Shown here one piece after another: positions 14,545-35,122 of a DNA stretch of 35,173 nt. The translations under genes and the position numbers were made by a program. Source of the DNA: a virus; the IMG/VR virus record IMGVR_UViG_3300028571_000059, positions 1 to 35,173 of that record. The stretch is one strand, 5' to 3'. Each line of letters starts with the position of its first letter. Within the stretch, counting starts at the first letter, position 1. Under the pieces are notes generated by a model. That model saw nothing but the letters and a program-made list of their open reading frames with translations. It had not been told where the DNA came from and ran no database searches.

Positions 14545-14756
14545 CGCACCCGCAGGGCTTCGAAGCCCCGGCGCAGCGCGTAGCTGCGCACGATCGAGAC
14601 GGCCGTGAAGATCAAGCCGATCAGCAAGTTCTCAGTGACGGTCACTGCCAGGCCGAACAGGGGGAACACCACCATCTGCGTGACCACCGCCACCCCGTAA
14701 CCCACTAGCACATTGGCGAGCGACTCCACCATGGACATCAGGCGCGACTGCTTCAT
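14487..14756 (-). CDS. DUF7220-like small membrane protein
   Basis: An 89-aa protein from ATG 14756 (MKQSRLMSMVESLANVLVGY), overlapping the methyltransferase stop by ATGA. Two hydrophobic helices are plain: about residues 12-32 (ANVLVGYGVAVVTQMVVFPLF) split from 41-57 (NLLIGLIFTAVSIVRSY), with a basic loop (ALRRGFEALRVRQ) after them. The pattern VESL-NV-VGYG-AV-TQ and VSIVRSY-LRR is one I recall as DUF7220, small phage membrane proteins. Role unknown; it is translated after the methyltransferases. Confidence 0.75.
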   Translation of the reverse strand: MKQSRLMSMVESLANVLVGYGVAVVTQMVVFPLFGLAVTVTENLLIGLIFTAVSIVRSYALRRGFEALRVRQSARDSSTISQWITKPVR

Positions 14757-16042
14757 GCGTCGGCCTCCTGGTCTGCTGTAATCGTCACGCCTGCCACTGC
14801 CGCCAGGTCGTTGAACTTGACCGCGTCGGCTTCCCGGTAGGCTTCCTGCCCACTCCAGTCCTGCCAGCGGCGCACAATCACATCCACGTACTTGGGATCG
14901 AGCTCGATCAGCCAACCGATACGACCGGTTTTTTCTGCGGCGATGAGGGTGGTGCCCGAACCGCTGAACGGGTCCAGCACGATGTCACCCGGACGGCTGG
15001 AGTTACGGATGGCCCGCTCGACCAGTTCCACCGGCTTCATGGTCGGGTGCAGGTCGTTTTTCTGAGGCTTCTTGATGTTCCACACGTCGCCCTGATCGCG
15101 ATCCCCGCACCAGTGGCGGTTCTCTCCTTCGGGCCAGCCATACAAGATGGGCTCATACTGACGCTGGTAGTCGGCGCGGCCGAGCGTGAAGGTGTTCTTG
15201 GCCCAAATGATGAACGTGGACCACTTGCCACCGGCAGCGCGGAATGCAGACTGCAGCGTGTCGAGTTCGCTGGATGACATGGCCACATAGACGGCTCCGC
15301 TACAGCGCTCCAGCATCGGCGTCATGGCCGCCAGCAGGAAATCGTAGAAATCATCGCCCAGGTTATCGTTCAGGATCGGGCGGTCCTTGCCGCGCATTTT
15401 GTCCTTGGCGCTGTTGGCATAGTCCACGTTATAGGGCGGATCTGTCACGATCATGTCTGCCTTGGCATCGGCCATCAGCAGCTCGTAGCTCTTGGGGTCC
15501 GTGGCATCGCCGCACACCAGCCGGTGATTGCCCAGCTCCCAAACATCACCCGGGCGGGAGATGGCAGTGGCCGACACTTCGGGAACGGCATCGTCATCCG
15601 TCTGGCCATCGACCGTGGTCTCTTCGCCCGCCATGATTTCGGCCAGGGCATCGGCATCGAAGCCGGTGATGTCCAGATTGAAACCATCCTCCTGCAGTGA
15701 CTGCAGTTCGATGCGCAGCATGGCGTCGTCCCAACCGGCGTTTTCTGCGATGCGGTTGTCCGCAATGATGAGCGCGCGACGCTGGGTGGGGGTCAGGTGA
15801 TCCAAAACCACCACGGGCACGGCGTCCAGACCGAGCTTTTGTGCGGCGGCCAGCCGTCCGTGACCGGCGACGATCACGCCATCGGACCCGGCCAGGATCG
15901 GATTGGTGAAGCCAAACTCGACGATGGAGGCAGCGATCTGTGCCACCTGCTCTTCGGAGTGGGTGCGGGCGTTGCGGGCGTAGGGCACAAGCTTGGCCGT
16001 CGGCCAGCGCTCGATGTGGGTGGAAAGCCAAGGTTCAGACAT
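14753..16042 (-). CDS. ParB-domain DNA methyltransferase, DPPY type
   Basis: A 429-aa protein from ATG 16042 (MSEPWLSTHIERWPTAKLVP); a TTG at 16081 is a possible alternative. Residues 10-100 are a ParB/Srx-like domain with VIVAGHGRLAAAQKL at 57-70. The methyltransferase follows: DPPY at 201-204, the SAM-binding DPFSGSGTT at 357-365. DPPY before the SAM motif marks the beta class, which methylates adenine N6 or cytosine N4; which base and site are unknown. Phages use such enzymes to escape host restriction or time replication and packaging. It overlaps the related upstream gene by eight bases. Confidence 0.92.
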   Translation of the reverse strand: MSEPWLSTHIERWPTAKLVPYARNARTHSEEQVAQIAASIVEFGFTNPILAGSDGVIVAGHGRLAAAQKLGLDAVPVVVLDHLTPTQRRALIIADNRIAENAGWDDAMLRIELQSLQEDGFNLDITGFDADALAEIMAGEETTVDGQTDDDAVPEVSATAISRPGDVWELGNHRLVCGDATDPKSYELLMADAKADMIVTDPPYNVDYANSAKDKMRGKDRPILNDNLGDDFYDFLLAAMTPMLERCSGAVYVAMSSSELDTLQSAFRAAGGKWSTFIIWAKNTFTLGRADYQRQYEPILYGWPEGENRHWCGDRDQGDVWNIKKPQKNDLHPTMKPVELVERAIRNSSRPGDIVLDPFSGSGTTLIAAEKTGRIGWLIELDPKYVDVIVRRWQDWSGQEAYREADAVKFNDLAAVAGVTITADQEADA

Positions 16043-17441
16043 GAGTGGATTCGCTTTGTCGTTGTTGGGCGATGGCCTCAAAGGTCTCGCCTGTGGCGGC
16101 CAATGTCACCGGCACGCCGGGGAAGTTCTGTTGGAAACGGATCAGCGCCACATCCACGTACTCAGGCGCGATCTCTACGGCACGGCCAACGCGACCAGTG
16201 CGCTGGGCGGCCATCAACGTGGTACCGCTACCGCCAAAGGGCTCAAACACGATCTCGCCTTCATCGGTGTAGGCCTCGATTACCTCCACCGGCAGCGTCA
16301 CCGGGAACACAGCTGGGTGGTCGATGTCCTTGCCGATCTTTCCCTTGTGGCGCATGACCCGGATGACCGAGTCAGGGATGCGGTGGTCCTGCGTCGGCTG
16401 ACCCGCAGCGGTCCAGCCATTGACCTGGCCATCCTTGCCACGCATGGCGGTTGAGGATCCGTCGGCGCGCAGGTGGGTCTCCTGACCAGCGAACTTGCAG
16501 GGCACCGTCTTGTTGGGTTTGCGGGTCTGCCGGTTGAAGTGGAAGATGAATTCGAAGCTCGGTGCGAGACGTCCTTGCCAGTCGCCGGGCATCCCTGGCC
16601 CCTGGTCCCAGACGTACCAGGCAAAGCGCCGCCAGCCTTGTGTCCGCATCCAATCAAGCCACTGGTCCCAATACGGGATGAACTCGTTGTCGCGGTGGAT
16701 CAGACCCAGATTGACCAGCACCTGGCCATCGGCGGCCATGGGCACTTGCGCAAACACGCCGCGCATCAGGCCATCCCAATCAGCGATACCGCCGGAGGTG
16801 TAGTCGCGCTGGTTGCCGTAGGGCGGGGAGGTGAAACACAGGCTGGCCTGCTCGTTCTGCATCAAAGTGGCGATCACCGTCGGATCGCTGGTGTCGCCGC
16901 AGATCAGGCGGTGCGGGCCCAGTTGCCAGACGTCCCCTGGGCGGGAGATCGGCTGCTTGGGAGGCTCTGGGACATCATCATCCTCATCGCTGGCCGGTTC
17001 TTCATCGGTATCCGAACCCTCCGTCTCTGCAATGTCGGCCAGCATCTGGGCCAGTTCGTCATCGTCAAAGCCGGTGAGCAGCAGGTCATAACCCGATTCG
17101 GACAGTTCCGCCATTTCGAGCGCCAGCAACTCCTCGTCCCAGCCAGCATCCAGCGCCAGGCGGTTGTCGGCGATCACGTAGGCGCGCTTTTGCGCAGGGG
17201 TCAGGTGGCCCAGTTCGATGACAGGGACCTCGGCCAGATCCAACTTGCGCGCCGCCGCCAGGCGCCCGTGTCCGGCGATGATGCCGCTCTCCCCATCAAC
17301 CAGGATGGGTTGCGTCCAGCCAAACTCCACGATGCTGGCCGCGATCTTGGCAATCTGAGCCGGCGAGTGTGTGCGCGGATTTCTTGCGTAGGGCAGCAGC
17401 GCATCGATCGCGCGATATTCGATCTGCAGGTTTGGCGTCAT
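16035..17441 (-). CDS. ParB-domain DNA methyltransferase, SPPY type
   Basis: A 468-aa protein from ATG 17441 (MTPNLQIEYRAIDALLPYAR); the frame extends to an ATG at 17603 but that part looks non-coding and contains a terminator-like hairpin. The ParB-like domain includes IIAGHGRLAAARKL at 54-67. After an acidic linker (about 140-160) comes TSPPYGNQRDY with SPPY at 205-208, then PFGGSGTT at 401-408. SPPY is most often seen in cytosine-N4 enzymes. It is a paralogue of the next gene with the same domain order but a different target region. Confidence 0.9.
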   Translation of the reverse strand: MTPNLQIEYRAIDALLPYARNPRTHSPAQIAKIAASIVEFGWTQPILVDGESGIIAGHGRLAAARKLDLAEVPVIELGHLTPAQKRAYVIADNRLALDAGWDEELLALEMAELSESGYDLLLTGFDDDELAQMLADIAETEGSDTDEEPASDEDDDVPEPPKQPISRPGDVWQLGPHRLICGDTSDPTVIATLMQNEQASLCFTSPPYGNQRDYTSGGIADWDGLMRGVFAQVPMAADGQVLVNLGLIHRDNEFIPYWDQWLDWMRTQGWRRFAWYVWDQGPGMPGDWQGRLAPSFEFIFHFNRQTRKPNKTVPCKFAGQETHLRADGSSTAMRGKDGQVNGWTAAGQPTQDHRIPDSVIRVMRHKGKIGKDIDHPAVFPVTLPVEVIEAYTDEGEIVFEPFGGSGTTLMAAQRTGRVGRAVEIAPEYVDVALIRFQQNFPGVPVTLAATGETFEAIAQQRQSESTHV

Positions 17442-17448
17442 GGAATTG

Positions 17449-17480
17449 AAAAACCCGCCGAGCGTTGCCGCCGGGCGGGT
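17449..17480 (-). terminator. Rho-independent terminator or attenuator ahead of the methyltransferases
   Basis: Read leftward, ACCCGCC (17480-17474) pairs with GGCGGGT (17459-17453) and is followed at once by TTTTT (17453-17449). It lies eight bases before the methyltransferase ATG. It would end transcripts coming from the early operon, or act as an attenuator at the early/middle boundary. Confidence 0.7.
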
Positions 17481-17497
17481 GAGAAACTTGAAGGGGT

Positions 17498-17552
17498 GGT
17501 AACTGTCGGGGGCGGTGGTAACCACAGGCCGGTAACCTGGCCGGGTGGTAAC
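17498..17552. repeat. Four direct GGTAAC repeats
   Basis: GGTAAC occurs at 17498, 17517, 17531 and 17547, three times within GGTGGTAAC and three times followed by C. The start-to-start spacings are 19, 14 and 16 bases. They lie just upstream (in the leftward sense) of the terminator and methyltransferase gene and could bind a regulator. Confidence 0.45.
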
Positions 17553-17809
17553 CTGTTTTTCAGGGCAGTCGCTATCGAAATCTCGCGCTGTTGCCCCCCG
17601 CATTACTATTTGGCCAGGAAGGACCCGTTGATTTCCTCAGGTGCGAGGTGTTTTTGATCCCCTCATGCATCGCTGCACTTCTGTCCTGACCATAGCTGAA
17701 ACTGTACGCTCAAATGGGCCTTCATGCTGCATTCGGATCTAGGCGCATTCTTCGCTCTAAGCCGCATTGACAGCAGGCATTACCCGCACACACGCCAAAA
17801 CACGTTAAA

Positions 17810-25466: not shown

Positions 25467-25730
25467 TCATGCCATCACGCGTTCAGCGGTCGACTCGTGC
25501 AGCGCGCTGTACTCGAAGTCGAGAATGGCTTCCAGCGGATAGCTGACCCGCTTGGAGAGCTTGAGGTAACGAGGGCCACGGCCCTCGCTGCGCCAGCGTT
25601 GTAGGGTCTTGGGGCTGACACCCCAGCGCTGTGCCAGCTCGTTTTCGTTCAGGACCCGGCGATCGCCAGGTGCCAGGGTGTTGATCGCCGGGTAGGACGA
25701 CCGGGTTTGGGGGCTTGCCGTGGCGGCCAT
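25467..25730 (-). CDS. First gene of the early operon: small HTH protein
   Basis: An 87-aa protein from ATG 25730, with AAGGAGAG four bases upstream. The MerR/AlpA-type winged helix is LNENELAQRWGVSPKTLQRW plus PRYLKLSKRVSYPLEAILDF. The first 20 residues are a disordered Ser/Thr/Ala stretch. As the promoter-proximal gene it may control its own operon, a Cro- or excisionase-like role; the inverted repeats at 25783-25838 lie directly upstream. The target is inferred only. Confidence 0.82.
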   Translation of the reverse strand: MAATASPQTRSSYPAINTLAPGDRRVLNENELAQRWGVSPKTLQRWRSEGRGPRYLKLSKRVSYPLEAILDFEYSALHESTAERVMA

Positions 25731-25782
25731 GAGACTCTCCTTTGAGGCTGTTGAGGAACAGGTGTCATTGGAGAATTCGGGT

Positions 25783-25838
25783 GGCGAACTTACGAGGGAG
25801 CGATTGGCGAACTCAGCGGAAACTTCCAGTTCGCCAAT
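25783..25838. promoter_or_regulatory. Operator-like GGCGAACT repeats upstream of the early operon
   Basis: ATTGGCGAACT (25803-25813) and AGTTCGCCAAT (25828-25838) form a perfect 11-base inverted repeat with 14 bases between. A third GGCGAACT stands at 25783-25790, 23 bases from the first in the same orientation. This is the layout of a repressor or activator control site. I do not see a good -10/-35 pair for the leftward operon here. Confidence 0.6.
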
Positions 25839-25857
25839 GACGTCCAGAATGCAAAAC

Positions 25858-25876
25858 GGCGAGCACTTGGCTCGCC
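25858..25876 (-). terminator. Hairpin with short T-run, leftward
   Basis: GGCGAGC (25858-25864) and GCTCGCC (25870-25876) form a perfect 7-bp stem with a 5-base loop. Read leftward the stem is followed by GTTTTG. It may shield the early operon from read-through, or be another regulatory palindrome. Confidence 0.4.
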
Positions 25877-25922
25877 ATCTCGGAAGAAAGATTCTGTAAT
25901 ATTGCTACGATGTTGAAACTTT

Positions 25923-25964
25923 GTAAGGTCCTTACCATACGCCGATTGATCATACAAACCTTAC
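25923..25964. promoter_or_regulatory. Second operator-like site, GTAAGG-T-CCTTAC palindrome
   Basis: GTAAGG (25923-25928), T, CCTTAC (25930-25935) is a perfect palindrome. A further CCTTAC half-site is at 25959-25964. It lies 70-80 bases before the Rex-like gene pair. TTGAAA overlaps just upstream of the palindrome with a weak -10 (CATACG) 17 bases on, so the site could control the rightward promoter. Confidence 0.5.
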
Positions 25965-26004
25965 GCCAGCAGCCAACTCTAAGCCATCGCCATCAAGAAA
26001 ATTT

Positions 26005-26865
26005 ATGAAGATACACGCCTATAAAGTTGATTCCTTTGATGGAAGTCGAACCCTTCAAGATGTATTGCTACAAATTGAGAGCGAACCAAGCCTCAGAGAA
26101 AGAATCAGACTAATAAATCAAGTCGAGCTCAGGGCTGAGTCTGTATCGCAAAAAAATGGATTATGGCTGATGGACTTCGTAAGAATCAGAACCAGTAACG
26201 GTCCAGGCAAAGTCGGACGAGATTCTGAAGTTGAAGGATTCGAGTTCGATGAAGAAGAAGGATTTGGCGAAGAGACAGCTGCTCTTTATGATCCCGCAAG
26301 CGGATATATTCTGGTTGAATACAACCACTTTGGGGTAAGGGCTGGAGCTATAGCAGATTATCTGAGCGCATATGACGGAACAGAAACAAGCCTGTACACT
26401 TTTAAACCGAAATATGATGAAGATGTTGAACGCCGACTTCTGAACCATGGCATAACGCGCAAGATATCCTTTTGCCTTGATATTACGAGGATGTCTGAAC
26501 AAGATAGGCAGCGAGGTCGTGCTCTTTCTGAGGCAATTGATTATGGACGACAGAACGGGGCAGATAAAATAAAAGTTGAGATTTCCGTCCAAGGTGAACG
26601 TCAACGTAGCCTCGCTAAAAACGCGCTCGACGGCCTCTCGGCTCTTCGCTCAATTCTTGGACAAAATCCTGACGCCATCACCAAACTGGAAGTTTCTGGC
26701 AAAGAGAATCAAGACTCGGTCACTGAGGTTCTGGATCTTATCGCCCATAGACTCTCAATTGAGTTCAACGATCTCGTTTTGGGCGCTGATCTCCGGTATC
26801 CTCGCGACGAAAGATGGCGAGCGTTAGTGCGAGCCAAGAACGGATGGCACCAGATATTGAGATAG
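26005..26865 (+). CDS. DUF6731-like protein, candidate RexA analogue
   Basis: A 286-aa soluble protein from ATG 26005 (MKIHAYKVDSFDGSRTLQDV), weak ribosome site. An N-terminal domain (1-130) contains GLWLMDFVRIR, an acidic stretch EGFEFDEEEGFGEETAALYD and GYILVEYNHFGVRAGAIADYL. The second half is charged and alternating (ISFCLDITRMSEQDRQRGRA; ADKIKVEISVQGERQRSLAK). I recognise the start and layout as DUF6731-like. Lambda RexA (279 aa) shows, from memory, the same sequence of features: acidic D/E-LGF segment, hydrophobic strand, then a helix. The gene is visibly richer in A+T than its neighbours, a sign of separate origin. It is followed by a membrane protein gene four bases on. Confidence 0.7.
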   Translation: MKIHAYKVDSFDGSRTLQDVLLQIESEPSLRERIRLINQVELRAESVSQKNGLWLMDFVRIRTSNGPGKVGRDSEVEGFEFDEEEGFGEETAALYDPASGYILVEYNHFGVRAGAIADYLSAYDGTETSLYTFKPKYDEDVERRLLNHGITRKISFCLDITRMSEQDRQRGRALSEAIDYGRQNGADKIKVEISVQGERQRSLAKNALDGLSALRSILGQNPDAITKLEVSGKENQDSVTEVLDLIAHRLSIEFNDLVLGADLRYPRDERWRALVRAKNGWHQILR

Positions 26866-26869
26866 AAAA

Positions 26870-27280
26870 ATGAAACTATTTTTCGAGAAAATCTACCCGT
26901 ACTTACTGGGCCTCATAGCATCAGTTTTATGGTTACGTATGCAAGGTACATTTCCAACGGACGACTCATTGCTCTCGGCCACGTTAACGGTGTCTGGTAT
27001 TTTCGTGGGTTTTCTTGCTACAAGCAAGGCAATTCTCATGAGCATGAGCTCGCCAATAATCGAAGAACTAAAAAGAAGCGGCTACATCGAGGAACTTGTA
27101 TCTTACATCGGTCAAGCGATCTGGATAAACCTTCTGTTTTGTAGCATCAATGTGATCGGCTATTTTGTTAGCACGCAAGCGGGGTGGTACTCGTTAATTT
27201 GGATATTTATCTCTGTTTGTGCTCTAGCAACATTTATTCGCGTCACGCACATCATGCTCAAAATCTTCAAGCATGGTTGA
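26870..27280 (+). CDS. Four-helix membrane protein, candidate RexB analogue
   Basis: A 136-aa protein from ATG 26870, four bases after its partner. Four hydrophobic helices are evident: about residues 8-23 (YPYLLGLIASVLWL), 33-57 (LLSATLTVSGIFVGFLATSKA), 78-100 (YIGQAIWINLLFCSINVIGYF) and 105-130 (WYSLIWIFISVCALATFIRV). The loop between helices 2 and 3 holds EELKRSGYIEELV. Lambda RexB (144 aa, four helices) has a comparable ATL-helix-basic-loop-GY layout, as far as I recall it. In that model it is an inner-membrane channel opened by the soluble partner. A+T-rich like the partner. The 90 bases after it hold nothing I can identify. Confidence 0.75.
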   Translation: MKLFFEKIYPYLLGLIASVLWLRMQGTFPTDDSLLSATLTVSGIFVGFLATSKAILMSMSSPIIEELKRSGYIEELVSYIGQAIWINLLFCSINVIGYFVSTQAGWYSLIWIFISVCALATFIRVTHIMLKIFKHG

Positions 27281-27367: not shown

Positions 27368-27853
27368 TTAGATCGAGAATCCAAACAATCGTCGCTGCTC
27401 CTCCCAGTCCCGTGGCAACGGCTCATGCCGTCCACGCAGTGTCTGCAAATTGAGATGCCGAGGCTGTTTTCCGTCGAGGACGGCTTCGATGATGTCCGGC
27501 GCCAGCATGGTCATGCGCAGCACTTCGGCGACCCAGCCCTGCTCTAATTTCATTGACCTGGACAGATCTCGGATGGTGGCGAATTTGCCTTGATCGAGCA
27601 GCTTCTGCCAGTAGAAGGCTTTGCCCAAGGCGCGGATCATGGAAATGTCTTCCCCACCCGAGCCGAGGACCGAATGCTCACCAGGGGGTGGCGTCATAAC
27701 CTTGTGGTTTCGCTTGCGCCGGATCGTCAGCGGCACCATCGTCACGCGCTGCTGCCCAGTGATGTAGTTGCGGGCGTCCTGGCCAATCTCGATGCGCACA
27801 TTGCGCTGCCTACTGTTCTCCGGACGCGTGACTTGGGTATCGGTGTTTTTCAT
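27368..27853 (-). CDS. HTH/ParB-like protein of the recombinase unit
   Basis: A 161-aa protein whose ATG overlaps the recombinase stop (ATGA at 27850-27853). The N-terminal 60 residues are basic (RIEIGQDARNYITGQQ; PLTIRRKRNHKVMTPP). A helix-turn-helix of the ParB/KorB sort follows (TIRDLSRSMKLEQGWVAEVL), with the characteristic end LRGRHEPLPRDWEEQRRLFGF. Proteins with this ending are regularly found after DUF2924-linked serine recombinases, from memory. It may act as an accessory or directionality factor; this is inference. Confidence 0.8.
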   Translation of the reverse strand: MKNTDTQVTRPENSRQRNVRIEIGQDARNYITGQQRVTMVPLTIRRKRNHKVMTPPPGEHSVLGSGGEDISMIRALGKAFYWQKLLDQGKFATIRDLSRSMKLEQGWVAEVLRMTMLAPDIIEAVLDGKQPRHLNLQTLRGRHEPLPRDWEEQRRLFGFSI

Positions 27854-29265
27854 GCGTACACCTCCTCGGCTGCACCCTTGGTTTCTTCCACCAGAGGGTG
27901 GTTGTGGATGTCGTCACTGAAACCCAGCCAGCCGTCTTCGCGCCACAGAATATCCAGGCCACGCTCGTGCAGATGGACCCGCTCGATCAGCAACTGCGTG
28001 ATCCGCTGTTGTTCCTTCGGGAACAGTTGGTCCCATACGGCGCCAATGCGCTGCATGGCTACCACCACTTGTGCTTCCTCGAGTTTGGCGCCCTTGGGGT
28101 GCTTTTGACAGGAGCGCCATGTCGCCAGCATCAACTCTGGCGCACACAACGCCTTGTGGATCTGCTCCAGTACCGCCGTCTCGATCTCGGCTGCAGGCAA
28201 TGGCCCCATTTCGATAAGGCCAGGCGTGAGTGTTGCACCGGCATTACGGCGTTTGTGAAGATACGGCACGTAGTACCGATACAAGCGTCCGCTCTTCTTG
28301 CGCGTGAAACTGTGGATCATCAGCTGACCATCGGGTGCGTAAAGCAACCCCGTGAGCAGAGCGGAGTGCTGAGTGATCGACTTGCGTGGGCCCTGTTTGC
28401 GGCGCTCAATAAACGCGTGGACAAGGTCCCATGTGTCCTGATCAATGATGGCTTCGTGCTGGCCAGGGTAGCTTTTGTCTTTGTGCTGGACCTCGCCAAG
28501 GTAGATCCGGTTGCGCAGCAATTTGAAAAGGTACTGCTGGTCGATGGGCCGGCCCTCGCGGAACTGACCACTCTGTGTCTGCCAGGCTTTGGTGGTCCGC
28601 CCCTCGATTTCCAATTCACGCACGATCTCTGCGGCCGAGCCATGCTCACCATAGCGTCGGAAGATGGACCGCACCAAATCTGCTTCCGGCTCGTTCACCG
28701 CAAGTTTTCGGTCGACGACGTCGTACCCGAGCGGCGGTGTACCTCCCATCCACATGCCCTTGGCCTTGCTTGCAGCTATCTTGTCGCGGATGCGCTCGCC
28801 GGTGACTTCCCGTTCGAATTGGGCAAACGACAACATCACGTTGAGCATCAGGCGGCCCATTGATGTCGCTGTATTGAATTGCTGGGTGACGGAGACAAAG
28901 GAGACGCCGTGTCGGTCGAAGACTTCGACCAGCTTGGCGAAATCCGTCAGGTTGCGTGTCAGACGATCGATTTTGTAGACGACCACGATATCGATCTTGC
29001 CGGCTTCAATATCAGCCATCAGCCGCCTGAGACCTGGTCGCTCGATGTTGCCACCGGAAAAACCGCCATCGTCATAGCCATCCTGCAGGGCGATCCAGCC
29101 TTCATGACGTTGGCTGGCGATGTACGCAAGCCCCGCATCCCGCTGCGCCTCCAGGCTGTTGTATTCCATGTCCAGGCCCTCATCGGTGGACTTGCGGGTG
29201 TAGACCGCGCAGCGCTTCCGAGGGGCGAGTGCCGCAGGCGCTGGTGTGTTGCGCTGGTTTTTCAT
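27850..29265 (-). CDS. Large serine recombinase, probable integrase
   Basis: A 471-aa protein from ATG 29265 (AAGGAGG upstream). The resolvase domain (about 17-165) has YTRKSTDEG with nucleophile Ser26, SLEAQRDAGL, then DIVVVYKIDRLTRNLTDFAK and MLSFAQFEREVTGERIRDKI. The recombinase domain follows (PPLGYDVVDRKLAVNEPEAD; LLRNRIYLGEVQHKDKSYPG), and then a shortened C-terminal region (TGLLYAPDGQLMIHSFTRKK) that lacks the usual zinc-ribbon cysteines. It would integrate the element by strand exchange through a Ser-DNA link. Overlap with the DUF2924 gene upstream shows coupled expression. Confidence 0.95.
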   Translation of the reverse strand: MKNQRNTPAPAALAPRKRCAVYTRKSTDEGLDMEYNSLEAQRDAGLAYIASQRHEGWIALQDGYDDGGFSGGNIERPGLRRLMADIEAGKIDIVVVYKIDRLTRNLTDFAKLVEVFDRHGVSFVSVTQQFNTATSMGRLMLNVMLSFAQFEREVTGERIRDKIAASKAKGMWMGGTPPLGYDVVDRKLAVNEPEADLVRSIFRRYGEHGSAAEIVRELEIEGRTTKAWQTQSGQFREGRPIDQQYLFKLLRNRIYLGEVQHKDKSYPGQHEAIIDQDTWDLVHAFIERRKQGPRKSITQHSALLTGLLYAPDGQLMIHSFTRKKSGRLYRYYVPYLHKRRNAGATLTPGLIEMGPLPAAEIETAVLEQIHKALCAPELMLATWRSCQKHPKGAKLEEAQVVVAMQRIGAVWDQLFPKEQQRITQLLIERVHLHERGLDILWREDGWLGFSDDIHNHPLVEETKGAAEEVYA

Positions 29266-29729
29266 GCTGCCTCCTTCTTCTTGGTCTTGAGGCCAAAAAA
29301 CACGGGGCCAGACCATGGAGAGCCGGTTATGACCTTGGCGACTGCGGTGAGGCTCGTGAAGCGTTGGTCGCGATATTCAAAGTCGCGCATGCCTCGAACC
29401 GTCACCTTGTGCTCGACGTCGTCATAGACGCGGGTGAGGACCGTGCCGGGCAGCAGGCGGTCCGCGTCGCGGCGCAATCGGGGTGGCAATATCCCGGTCT
29501 CGCCTATCTCTTCGAGCTTGCGGCGCACAGACATCTTCAGACCGCCGAACGCGCGTTCCTGAATTTTGTATGCCAGTCGGGATTCGAGCCAGGTCCGGTG
29601 ATGATGATTCGGGCGCTCGTCGAAATGCTCATCCCATAGAGCCCAAATGTTGTCCATGGGCAGGTGGGACAGTTGTGCGACCCGGGCGGCAACGCTGGCG
29701 GTGTCGGACTGTGGTGCGTGTGGTGTCAT
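29262..29729 (-). CDS. DUF2924 protein
   Basis: A 155-aa protein from ATG 29729. Features typical of DUF2924 are VAQLSHLPMDNIWALWDEHF, SRLAYKIQERAFGGLKMSVR, the basic segment PGTVLTRVYDDVEHKVTVRG and the end YRDQRFTSLTAVAKVITGSP. The last segment resembles the SAM-like/RAMA fold found in DNA-modification proteins. The family is nearly always next to a serine recombinase and is thought to help it; the mechanism is unknown. It overlaps both neighbours by four bases. Confidence 0.92.
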   Translation of the reverse strand: MTPHAPQSDTASVAARVAQLSHLPMDNIWALWDEHFDERPNHHHRTWLESRLAYKIQERAFGGLKMSVRRKLEEIGETGILPPRLRRDADRLLPGTVLTRVYDDVEHKVTVRGMRDFEYRDQRFTSLTAVAKVITGSPWSGPVFFGLKTKKKEAA

Positions 29730-30055: not shown

Positions 30056-30625
30056 CTAAAGGTTCCCGCTTTGCTGCGGAGAGACGCTTTCCACCATCAT
30101 GGCCAAAAATTGCTTTACGTCTGCTTGGAGACGCGAAAATGCTTCTTGGGAAATATCGAAGCTCAAATCAGAATGCAAGAACGTTCCGCTGCGCATACTG
30201 AGACCATAGTGAACCTTTCGAGATGCACCATTCTCGGAAATCTCGAGAAGCTTATTTTCATGTTTTTCCCCTGGCAGGCGCTGATCGATATGTTCGAAAG
30301 CCTCCCGCCCCTTTGCATAATGCTTAAACCATACGTCGTTCAAAACTTGAAGACCAGGCTCCAAGTGCACAAGCATTGGGTCTTGGACGGCTTTATACAA
30401 AAACCGATATAGGTTCCGCAGAGCAATGAAGTAGAAATGCACATCAATCAACACATCATGAACAGCATCTACATACTGAGGATTTTCGGCGGAAACCCCA
30501 GGTCGACTCCAGATGCGCCCGACTTGTACTTCTGCTGCACGAAGTGATCGGCGAGCCAAATCAAAACAATGCGCCGTAGCGGGCCTTTGGCATCCAAAAA
30601 CCAGATGTCGATAATCGCTATTCAT
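30056..30625 (-). CDS. Hypothetical protein coupled to ImmA-like protease
   Basis: A 189-aa protein from ATG 30625 (MNSDYRHLVFGCQRPATAHC), overlapping the protease stop by ATGA. It is mainly helical (VHDVLIDVHFYFIALRNLYR; AFSRLQADVKQFLAMMVESV) with aromatic-rich stretches. Base composition is more A+T-rich than the two genes before it, so it may have a separate origin. I do not recognise the family. As the third gene of an XRE-ImmA operon it could be an effector. Confidence 0.7.
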   Translation of the reverse strand: MNSDYRHLVFGCQRPATAHCFDLARRSLRAAEVQVGRIWSRPGVSAENPQYVDAVHDVLIDVHFYFIALRNLYRFLYKAVQDPMLVHLEPGLQVLNDVWFKHYAKGREAFEHIDQRLPGEKHENKLLEISENGASRKVHYGLSMRSGTFLHSDLSFDISQEAFSRLQADVKQFLAMMVESVSPQQSGNL

Positions 30626-31521
30626 GTGCCCATAGTACCGTCCGACACGTCGTCCTCCCACGACCGACCCCATGACCGGGGAGTCGCGCTTTCAAGCAGC
30701 AACAGCGACAGGACGCGGTCCCGCGCACCGTAGGTGTGCTTGAACTCGGTCAGCGTGATGTCGGCGGATTCGTCTGGACACCATACGTCGGCCGGCATGT
30801 CGATGCCGTTCCATTCCTGCTCAATGTCCGGGTCGGCAGCCAGCGTTTCCGGCAACGGTTCTTGCGGATCATCCGTGCGCCGGATGCGTGCCCGCGTCTT
30901 GATGGCGCTGCTGCTACGCCACTCGTACTTGGCGAATCCGTTGTCCCAATAGACCAGGATCGCGCGCTGCGGCGTGAACTTGATGAACCGGATGCACAGG
31001 GACTCGAACGAAACCTGGAAGCGTTTGGCAAGGACACTGAGAATGTGCAGATCAATGCGCCGGTCGGAAATCGCGTCGCGCAGCAGGTCACCAGGGATCA
31101 ACAGGTTACTGGCGAAGTCGTCCGCTTCGCGCTCAATGTCACGCATGCGGTCGGCGCCGGAATAGACGCTTTCCTTGTCACAGCTGAAGCTGGGGCGCTG
31201 GCCACGGTGCAAGACGAAGTGGCCAAGTTCATGGGCGATAGTGAAACGCTGGCGCTCGGCGGGTGACTTGCCGTTGAAGAAGATGCCCCACTCGGTGTCA
31301 TCCTGTGGGTTGCGCACCAGCATGCCCTCGCAGCTGGCCAGGCCATGCGCCATCGGTGCCTTGATTTCGCGAACACCCTGACCGTAGGGGGTGTCCGGCA
31401 ACATCTGGCGGACGAGGTCCAGATCAATGGCGTCCGGTGCAGACCCCTGGTGCCATGCGCGCATCCATTTGTGAATGTTGTTGGCCGCGATGGAACCGGT
31501 GAGGGCCTGCGTGGTGCTCAT
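30622..31521 (-). CDS. ImmA/IrrE-type zinc metalloprotease
   Basis: A 299-aa protein from ATG 31521. The catalytic motif is TIAHELGHFVLH (His97, Glu98, His101), and the third ligand is probably Glu132 in READDFASNLLIPGDLL, the usual HEXXH...E arrangement. In ICEBs1, ImmA cleaves the XRE repressor ImmR to switch on the element, and the neighbouring XRE gene suggests the same here. A C-terminal extension of about 120 residues (ending DGTMGT) is longer than in minimal ImmA and may sense a signal. Confidence 0.9.
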   Translation of the reverse strand: MSTTQALTGSIAANNIHKWMRAWHQGSAPDAIDLDLVRQMLPDTPYGQGVREIKAPMAHGLASCEGMLVRNPQDDTEWGIFFNGKSPAERQRFTIAHELGHFVLHRGQRPSFSCDKESVYSGADRMRDIEREADDFASNLLIPGDLLRDAISDRRIDLHILSVLAKRFQVSFESLCIRFIKFTPQRAILVYWDNGFAKYEWRSSSAIKTRARIRRTDDPQEPLPETLAADPDIEQEWNGIDMPADVWCPDESADITLTEFKHTYGARDRVLSLLLLESATPRSWGRSWEDDVSDGTMGT

Positions 31522-31524
31522 GAC

Positions 31525-31866
31525 TCAATCTCCGCTTTTGCCCTTGTCGGGGAACGCGATCTGGAGCAGTTGCCGGTAACGGTCTTTCTCCTCGTCGGTC
31601 ATGCCAGCGTACTCGCGGAAAAACTGGACATCTTCGGGGCTGGCCTCAGGCACAGCCTCCAAGGGCTCACCCATGACGTCTTCCATCGTCACGCCCAACA
31701 CCTTGGCCAACCCGCGCACCCGCTCGGCGGATGGGCGCTGGCCTTCCTTCATTTCTAGTTCCCAGATGTAAGCCTTGGTGCAGCCGACGGCGTCGGCTAC
31801 CTGCTGGAGGGTCAGCCCCTTCGCCTCACGCAAGCGCCGCAGGCGTGCCCCGAATGCCGAAGCCAT
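31525..31866 (-). CDS. XRE-family repressor (ImmR-like)
   Basis: A 113-aa protein from ATG 31866, seven bases after AGGAG. The HTH spans about residues 5-60: LRRLREAKGLTLQQVADAVG, KAYIWELEMKEGQRPSAERV and RGLAKVLGVTMEDVMGEPLE. The C-terminal third (EDVQFFREYAGMTDEEKDRY) is a short helical region, perhaps the ImmA cleavage or dimerisation part. Its promoter contains an inverted repeat around the -10 box, so it probably represses itself. It may be the prophage repressor or a regulator of the flanking modules only. Confidence 0.88.
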   Translation of the reverse strand: MASAFGARLRRLREAKGLTLQQVADAVGCTKAYIWELEMKEGQRPSAERVRGLAKVLGVTMEDVMGEPLEAVPEASPEDVQFFREYAGMTDEEKDRYRQLLQIAFPDKGKSGD

Positions 31867-35046: not shown

Positions 35047-35122
35047 TGGTGGCCCGGGGCGGAATCGAACCACCGACACAAGGATTTTCAATCCTCTGCT
35101 CTACCGACTGAGCTACCGGGCC
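35047..35122 (-). tRNA. tRNA-Phe (anticodon GAA)
   Basis: The minus strand encodes a 76-base tRNA with an encoded CCA end (35047-35049 complement). The acceptor stem is GGCCCGG/CCGGGCC, the D-arm contains AGCTCAGTCGGTAGAGC, the anticodon loop is TTGAAAA with anticodon GAA at 35089-35087, and the T-loop is GGTTCGATTCC. All positions are standard. Its 3' end faces the phage genes, the orientation common for tRNA insertion sites, though no second copy of the tRNA end is visible in the window. Confidence 0.97.

Follow-up and report, generated by a model that had tools for sequence, protein, structure and literature searches.

A DUF6731 gene and its membrane-protein partner in a prophage as a probable, strongly diverged RexAB-type exclusion system

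Overview

Two adjacent genes of the viral record IMGVR_UViG_3300028571_000059 are well supported as very distant relatives of the lambda genes rexA and rexB, and very likely make up a diverged, prophage-borne exclusion system of the RexAB type. The window (the whole stretch of DNA analysed, 35,173 nt) had been the subject of a preliminary description, in which the Rex relationship was proposed by eye and in which profile comparison, AlphaFold/Foldseek comparison and a survey of DUF6731 neighbours were suggested as checks. The proposal is now supported by matches between protein profiles, by a structure search in which RexA ranked first, and by the pairing of the two genes at every locus collected. 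The relationship is documented at the level of homology, fold and topology, gene order, strict pairing and purifying selection; exclusion activity of the pair would be expected by analogy.

The gene pair

The two ORFs (nt 26005–26865 and 26870–27280) are both on the + strand, begin with ATG and specify proteins of 286 and 136 aa. They are four bases apart, as described previously, the sequence between stop and start being AAAA. Two further statements of the preliminary description were borne out: the pair forms an A+T-rich island (44.7% G+C, compared to 61.6% for the whole record), and it is divergent from the early operon, with the early genes on the - strand and the pair on the + strand. Comparison with a 95% identical copy (locus L005) gave values of dN 0.027 and dS 1.12 for the first gene (dN/dS about 0.024), and dN 0.063 and dS 1.31 for the second (dN/dS about 0.048). 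Both ORFs are under purifying selection, and because dN is far lower than dS against this copy they can be taken as real genes.

The first protein was correctly assigned beforehand to the DUF6731 family (Pfam PF20505), which it matches with 72.5 bits, well above the curated cut-off of 27. Searches of this protein against Pfam RexA, PADLOC RexA and PDB sequences (phmmer) all lacked a link to RexA, and phmmer and profile searches of PDB sequences with DUF6731 and its partner returned nothing useful. Neither window protein matched the narrow lambda RexA and RexB families in Pfam (PF15969 and PF15968), while the lambda proteins did. Because these curated models gave no match, the pair is not filed under PF15969/PF15968. 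Though not a member of these narrow families, it is RexAB in kind, possessing two of the features that mark the type in the broad sense, i.e. a soluble component of RexA/RdgC fold and, adjacent and downstream, a RexB-related membrane protein.

A PADLOC candidate model, PDC-M67A, also matches DUF6731 proteins, over 35–70 residues only and not over the whole length; the likeness corresponds to a conserved D/E-E-GFGEE segment (E-values of 2e-6 to 3e-4 in most members). When genomes were searched with PDC-M67A, the sole protein recovered was the DUF6731 protein of genome G001. Literature searches found no paper mentioning DUF6731 and none on PDC-M67. Weak matches to BRD4_CDT, E1-N, SpoVAB, Csn2 and Cmr3 were dismissed, being either below cut-off or not common to the homologues.

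Four hydrophobic helices had been claimed for the 136-aa protein. Three of them (residues 39–57, 83–101 and 112–130) exceed a simple hydropathy threshold, and the first (about residues 9–27) falls under it in the window protein but passes it in several homologues. Between helices 2 and 3 is a short conserved loop, LKRSGYIEEL. Among 5,027 PADLOC models, the best for this protein was RexB, with an E-value (0.022) that would not count for the window partner alone. RexB was likewise the best PADLOC model for the distant partners of L006 (Neptuniibacter; 3.1e-4), L025 (2.2e-4) and L029 (4.4e-3). PADLOC gave no RexB match for the partners of L004, L011, L026 and L028, and for that of L022 only an insignificant match to Csn2. 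By direct sequence searches, the Rex link appears weak for the second protein and absent for the first.

Profile and structure comparisons

Profiles of 14 DUF6731/partner pairs were compared by hhalign with those of 14 RexA/RexB pairs, the latter drawn from lambda, Klebsiella, Hafnia-type and Salmonella phages, viral contigs and one bacterial genome. Each protein found its expected counterpart, as the preliminary description had anticipated. DUF6731 matched RexA with a probability of 95 and P of 3.9e-8 across 218 columns starting at residue 1, an alignment spanning most of the protein, and the partner matched RexB with a probability of 96.5 and P of 7.2e-10 across 153 columns, end to end. As controls, the alignments were either reversed or shuffled by whole columns, by blocks of 10 or by blocks of 20, with 100 shuffles of each kind (300 per pair). 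The shuffles preserve composition and local hydropathy, and control scores were at most half of the real ones, with maxima of 27.3 and 30.3 against 62.5 (DUF6731/RexA) and 63.2 (partner/RexB). The crossed hhalign comparisons, DUF6731 with RexB and partner with RexA, gave no match. An earlier hhalign run with few sequences had been suggestive only (probabilities of 38 for DUF6731/RexA and 80 for partner/RexB).

Searches with HMMs provided support in both directions, though only as such, the E-values being from small sets: a RexB HMM recovered most partners singly, and the partner HMM recovered RexB proteins, of which that of L055 was best. With the partner profile, the RexB proteins of L055 and L021 outscored lambda RexB, and the two groups are thus bridged. 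Loci L055, L054, L056 and L021 are distant RexA/RexB pairs with 26–31% identity to lambda RexA.

The first AlphaFold model of the DUF6731 protein, from 8 homologues, reached a pLDDT of 65.5, and human CENP-N, not RexA, accounted for all of its nine top PDB matches. These matches nevertheless offered a clue, CENP-N being orthologous to Chl4 of yeast (PMC4080450) and the RdgC/Iml3/Chl4 fold being that of RexA (PMC11077077). The plasmid-derived row was left out of the later input alignments. A model from 13 homologues had a mean pLDDT of 74.7 and a pTM of 0.66, and when it was compared by Foldseek with 350,542 PDB chains the best match was not an unrelated fold but RexA (8TWQ; E 5.7e-6 and 2.8e-5, prob 1.00), followed by RdgC of E. 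coli (2OWL; E 3.8e-5 and 2.2e-4). These were the only PDB entries with E <0.001, and CENP-N came next. The global TM-score of the model against RexA is low (0.33). In its published crystal RexA is closed, with a different arrangement of its two domains from that in RdgC (PMC11077077), and this may or may not explain the low score. Element by element, seven strands lead into a middle domain built from four strands and four helices, and a C-terminal helix ends the model, which agrees count-for-count with the description of RexA. The second domain of the model is of middling confidence.

Conserved pairing and distribution

DUF6731 genes were gathered from viral contigs, genome contigs, a plasmid and whole genomes, and fell into 14 distinct loci (the window, L004, L005, L006, L011, L015, L016, L017, L022 and L025–L029). 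In 14/14 the DUF6731 gene is followed by a gene for a RexB-like membrane protein on the same strand, overlapping it or within about 25 bases, and the conserved pairing that the suggested survey was to look for is therefore present. All of the partners are about 136–171 aa in length, with 3–4 hydrophobic helices, and share a motif that reads, roughly, S-A-x-x-T-x-S-G-x-x-x-G-F-L-x-T-x-x-(S/A)-I-L ... L-K-x-S-G-Y. In a fifteenth copy, L012, the first gene is broken and the second retained.

The family is sparse. DUF6731 was detected above cut-off in 2 of the 369 genomes of the class to which the Neptuniibacter genome belongs, in 6/399 of its phylum, and in 2/297 of the phylum that includes the source genome of L005. 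Among 50,697 phage records, tblastn with both window proteins and the Niallia DUF6731 protein found no match, and a search of plasmids found a single Niallia record (L004). Pseudomonadota and Bacillota are the phyla confirmed for DUF6731 pairs.

Genomic context and regulation

The early operon of the prophage (- strand) carries genes for an HTH protein, a phrog_2480 protein, an antirepressor, a Sak4-like protein, a Cas4-type exonuclease and a primase, and the terminase and portal genes are on the same strand. The prophage had been called lambda-like, which holds for the terminase and portal; the immunity region is not that of lambda. The first gene of this divergent operon, outside the pair (nt 25467–25730, - strand), specifies a small excisionase/MerR-like protein (HTH_17). 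The 57 bases at nt 25781–25837, between this gene and the pair, hold three operator-like copies of TTGGCGAACT, two on the + strand (25781–25790 and 25804–25813) and one on the - strand (25828–25837). With one mismatch allowed, sites of this type occur 9 times in the window against 2.2 expected, a number reached in 0/100 shuffles. The repeat segment is identical in L005 and L014, and the DNA just after it differs in L005. The repeats may be repressor operators. The A+T-rich leader of the pair (nt 25850–26004, + strand), at about which the alignment with L005 begins to diverge, presumably holds its own promoter. A consensus promoter was not found on the + strand upstream of the pair, and the scan for promoters and terminators performed no better than chance.

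The window contains no repressor gene adjoining the pair. Beyond the recombinase described below, a gene for an HTH_31/HTH_3 regulator (nt 31525–31866) is followed by one for an IrrE/ImmA-like M78 peptidase (nt 30622–31521), both on the - strand. Together (nt 30622–31866) they resemble an ImmR/ImmA switch, and are probably the immunity module of the prophage. The interval between the pair and these genes is occupied by a cassette (nt 27368–29729, - strand) comprising a large serine recombinase, a small phrog_14161 protein and a DUF2924 protein; in L005 also, the pair is followed by a similar recombinase and a phrog_14161-type protein. Elsewhere in the window, two neighbouring genes (nt 14753–17603, - strand) are fusions of ParB-N and DNA methyltransferase, and a tRNA-Phe(GAA) gene (nt 35047–35122, - strand) at the end of the record is possibly host sequence flanking the prophage.

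The surroundings of the pair vary between loci. In L022, a Mu-type transposase phage, an HTH_31 repressor-type gene lies directly upstream, and in L015 the pair is preceded by an HTH gene, with one further gene in between; a repressor-type gene followed by the pair is the order of lambda cI-rexA-rexB. The pair adjoins a 1443-aa gene of tape-measure size in L016, a lysis gene in L027 and the antitermination gene Q in L028. In L006 it has non-phage genes directly beside it and comes after genes recognised by eye as those for urease accessory proteins. On the Niallia plasmid (L004) its neighbour is a type I restriction operon. A DUF6710 protein (nt 2378–3109 of L004), possibly a further defence family, is specified near the restriction genes, some 800 bases upstream of the pair.

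Comparison with known Rex systems

Lambda RexA and RexB share with the window pair the order of the genes, the sizes of the proteins (279 and 144 aa compared to 286 and 136), the location in a prophage, the RexA/RdgC fold, the spacing of the RexB helices and a profile-level similarity along most of the length. They differ in that identity is about 12–19%, the Pfam families are separate, and the window pair is not directly downstream of a repressor. Only five Rex systems have been described (PMC12894663). Among them RexABpp of the Pseudomonas putida prophage P1 (PP_5643–5644) is, by its description, alike in its gene order, its four-helix partner and its diverged RexA, identified from profile and structure comparisons; it is an already characterised example of a Rex system that is missed by plain BLAST (PMC12894663). 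CarolAnn gp44/gp43 and Sbash gp30/gp31 likewise combine a soluble protein with a four-helix membrane protein (PMC6426606, PMC6426596), and in CarolAnn the Rex-like pair is co-expressed with the repressor (PMC6426606); unlike the DUF6731 proteins, the RexA-like proteins of these phages are about 370 aa in length. As single sequences, CarolAnn gp44 and gp43 showed no detectable similarity to the DUF6731 and partner profiles.

Proposed mechanism and alternatives

The DUF6731 protein, as a RexA homologue, would be a two-domain and probably dimeric DNA-clamp of the RexA/RdgC fold acting as a sensor, which could detect an infecting phage either through DNA-protein intermediates or through a phage protein. 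It would then trigger the RexB homologue, predicted to be an oligomeric four-helix protein of the inner membrane, which would depolarise or damage the membrane, arrest growth and abort the infection. We infer DNA binding, the step from sensor to effector, membrane damage and exclusion from the characterised Rex systems. Lambda RexA, like its homologues, forms dimers and binds DNA non-specifically (PMC11077077). For the lambda, CarolAnn, Sbash and P. putida systems it has been either demonstrated or proposed that the RexA-like partner activates a membrane effector, whereupon growth stops (PMC12894663, PMC6426606, PMC6426596). The simplest view is that the window pair would act alike.

The strongest competitor, itself unlikely, is that the RexA-like protein serves mainly to tune the lysis-lysogeny switch of the prophage, restrained by the membrane protein, with exclusion as a by-product. 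Lambda RexA does bias the CI-Cro switch and is antagonised by RexB (PMC11077077), the window pair starts beside operator-like repeats at a divergent early promoter, and repressor-type genes precede the pairs of L022 and L015; the pairs beside restriction genes on the Niallia plasmid and beside non-phage genes in L006, however, are without an evident switch. The roles could also be reversed, with the soluble protein as antiviral effector, kept inactive by the membrane protein. Such an arrangement is known for gp30/gp31 of mycobacteriophage Butters, which is the exception among the five described Rex systems (PMC12894663). The conserved loop between helices 2 and 3 of the window partner would rather fit a contact with an effector, by analogy with Sbash gp31, in which loop mutants lose defence (PMC6426596), and the reversed arrangement is considered improbable.

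That the pair is an unrelated moron or toxin-antitoxin-like unit, its resemblance to Rex arising by chance or from membrane-protein bias, would suit the weakness of the sequence signal in any single protein, but is very improbable given that two independent proteins match both Rex proteins in the right order, that controls preserving composition and hydropathy fail, and that RexA is the top structural match in the PDB. Least credible of all is the relationship to Kiwa, which the preliminary description had offered as an alternative. The layout is similar, four-helix KwaA being a membrane protein and KwaB a soluble one of about 300 aa, but the gene order is opposite (KwaA before KwaB), and profiles of one KwaAB pair gave no match by hhalign (P of 0.46 for KwaB and 0.22 for KwaA, probabilities <0.5). 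Neither the KwaB family (PF16162) in Pfam nor any Kiwa model in PADLOC was matched.

Significance

With a diverged RexAB-type exclusion system as the preferred explanation, the DUF6731 family gains a probable anti-phage function by analogy, and the link to RexA and RexB provides a testable role for proteins whose function had been unknown. The trigger of lambda Rex has been an open question since the rII work of Benzer, and more sequences are now at hand for mapping the conserved surfaces of both Rex proteins. Rex is also extended to Mu-type phages and to a plasmid of Bacillota. On balance, it seems somewhat more likely than not that the whole of DUF6731 is a large, overlooked branch of RexA that, with its partner, makes up a mobile exclusion system found in varied temperate phages (the present one and a Mu-type phage) and outside prophages, as exemplified by the Niallia plasmid, where the pair lies beside type I restriction genes. 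If true, RexAB would be a general bacterial defence system rather than a lambda curiosity.
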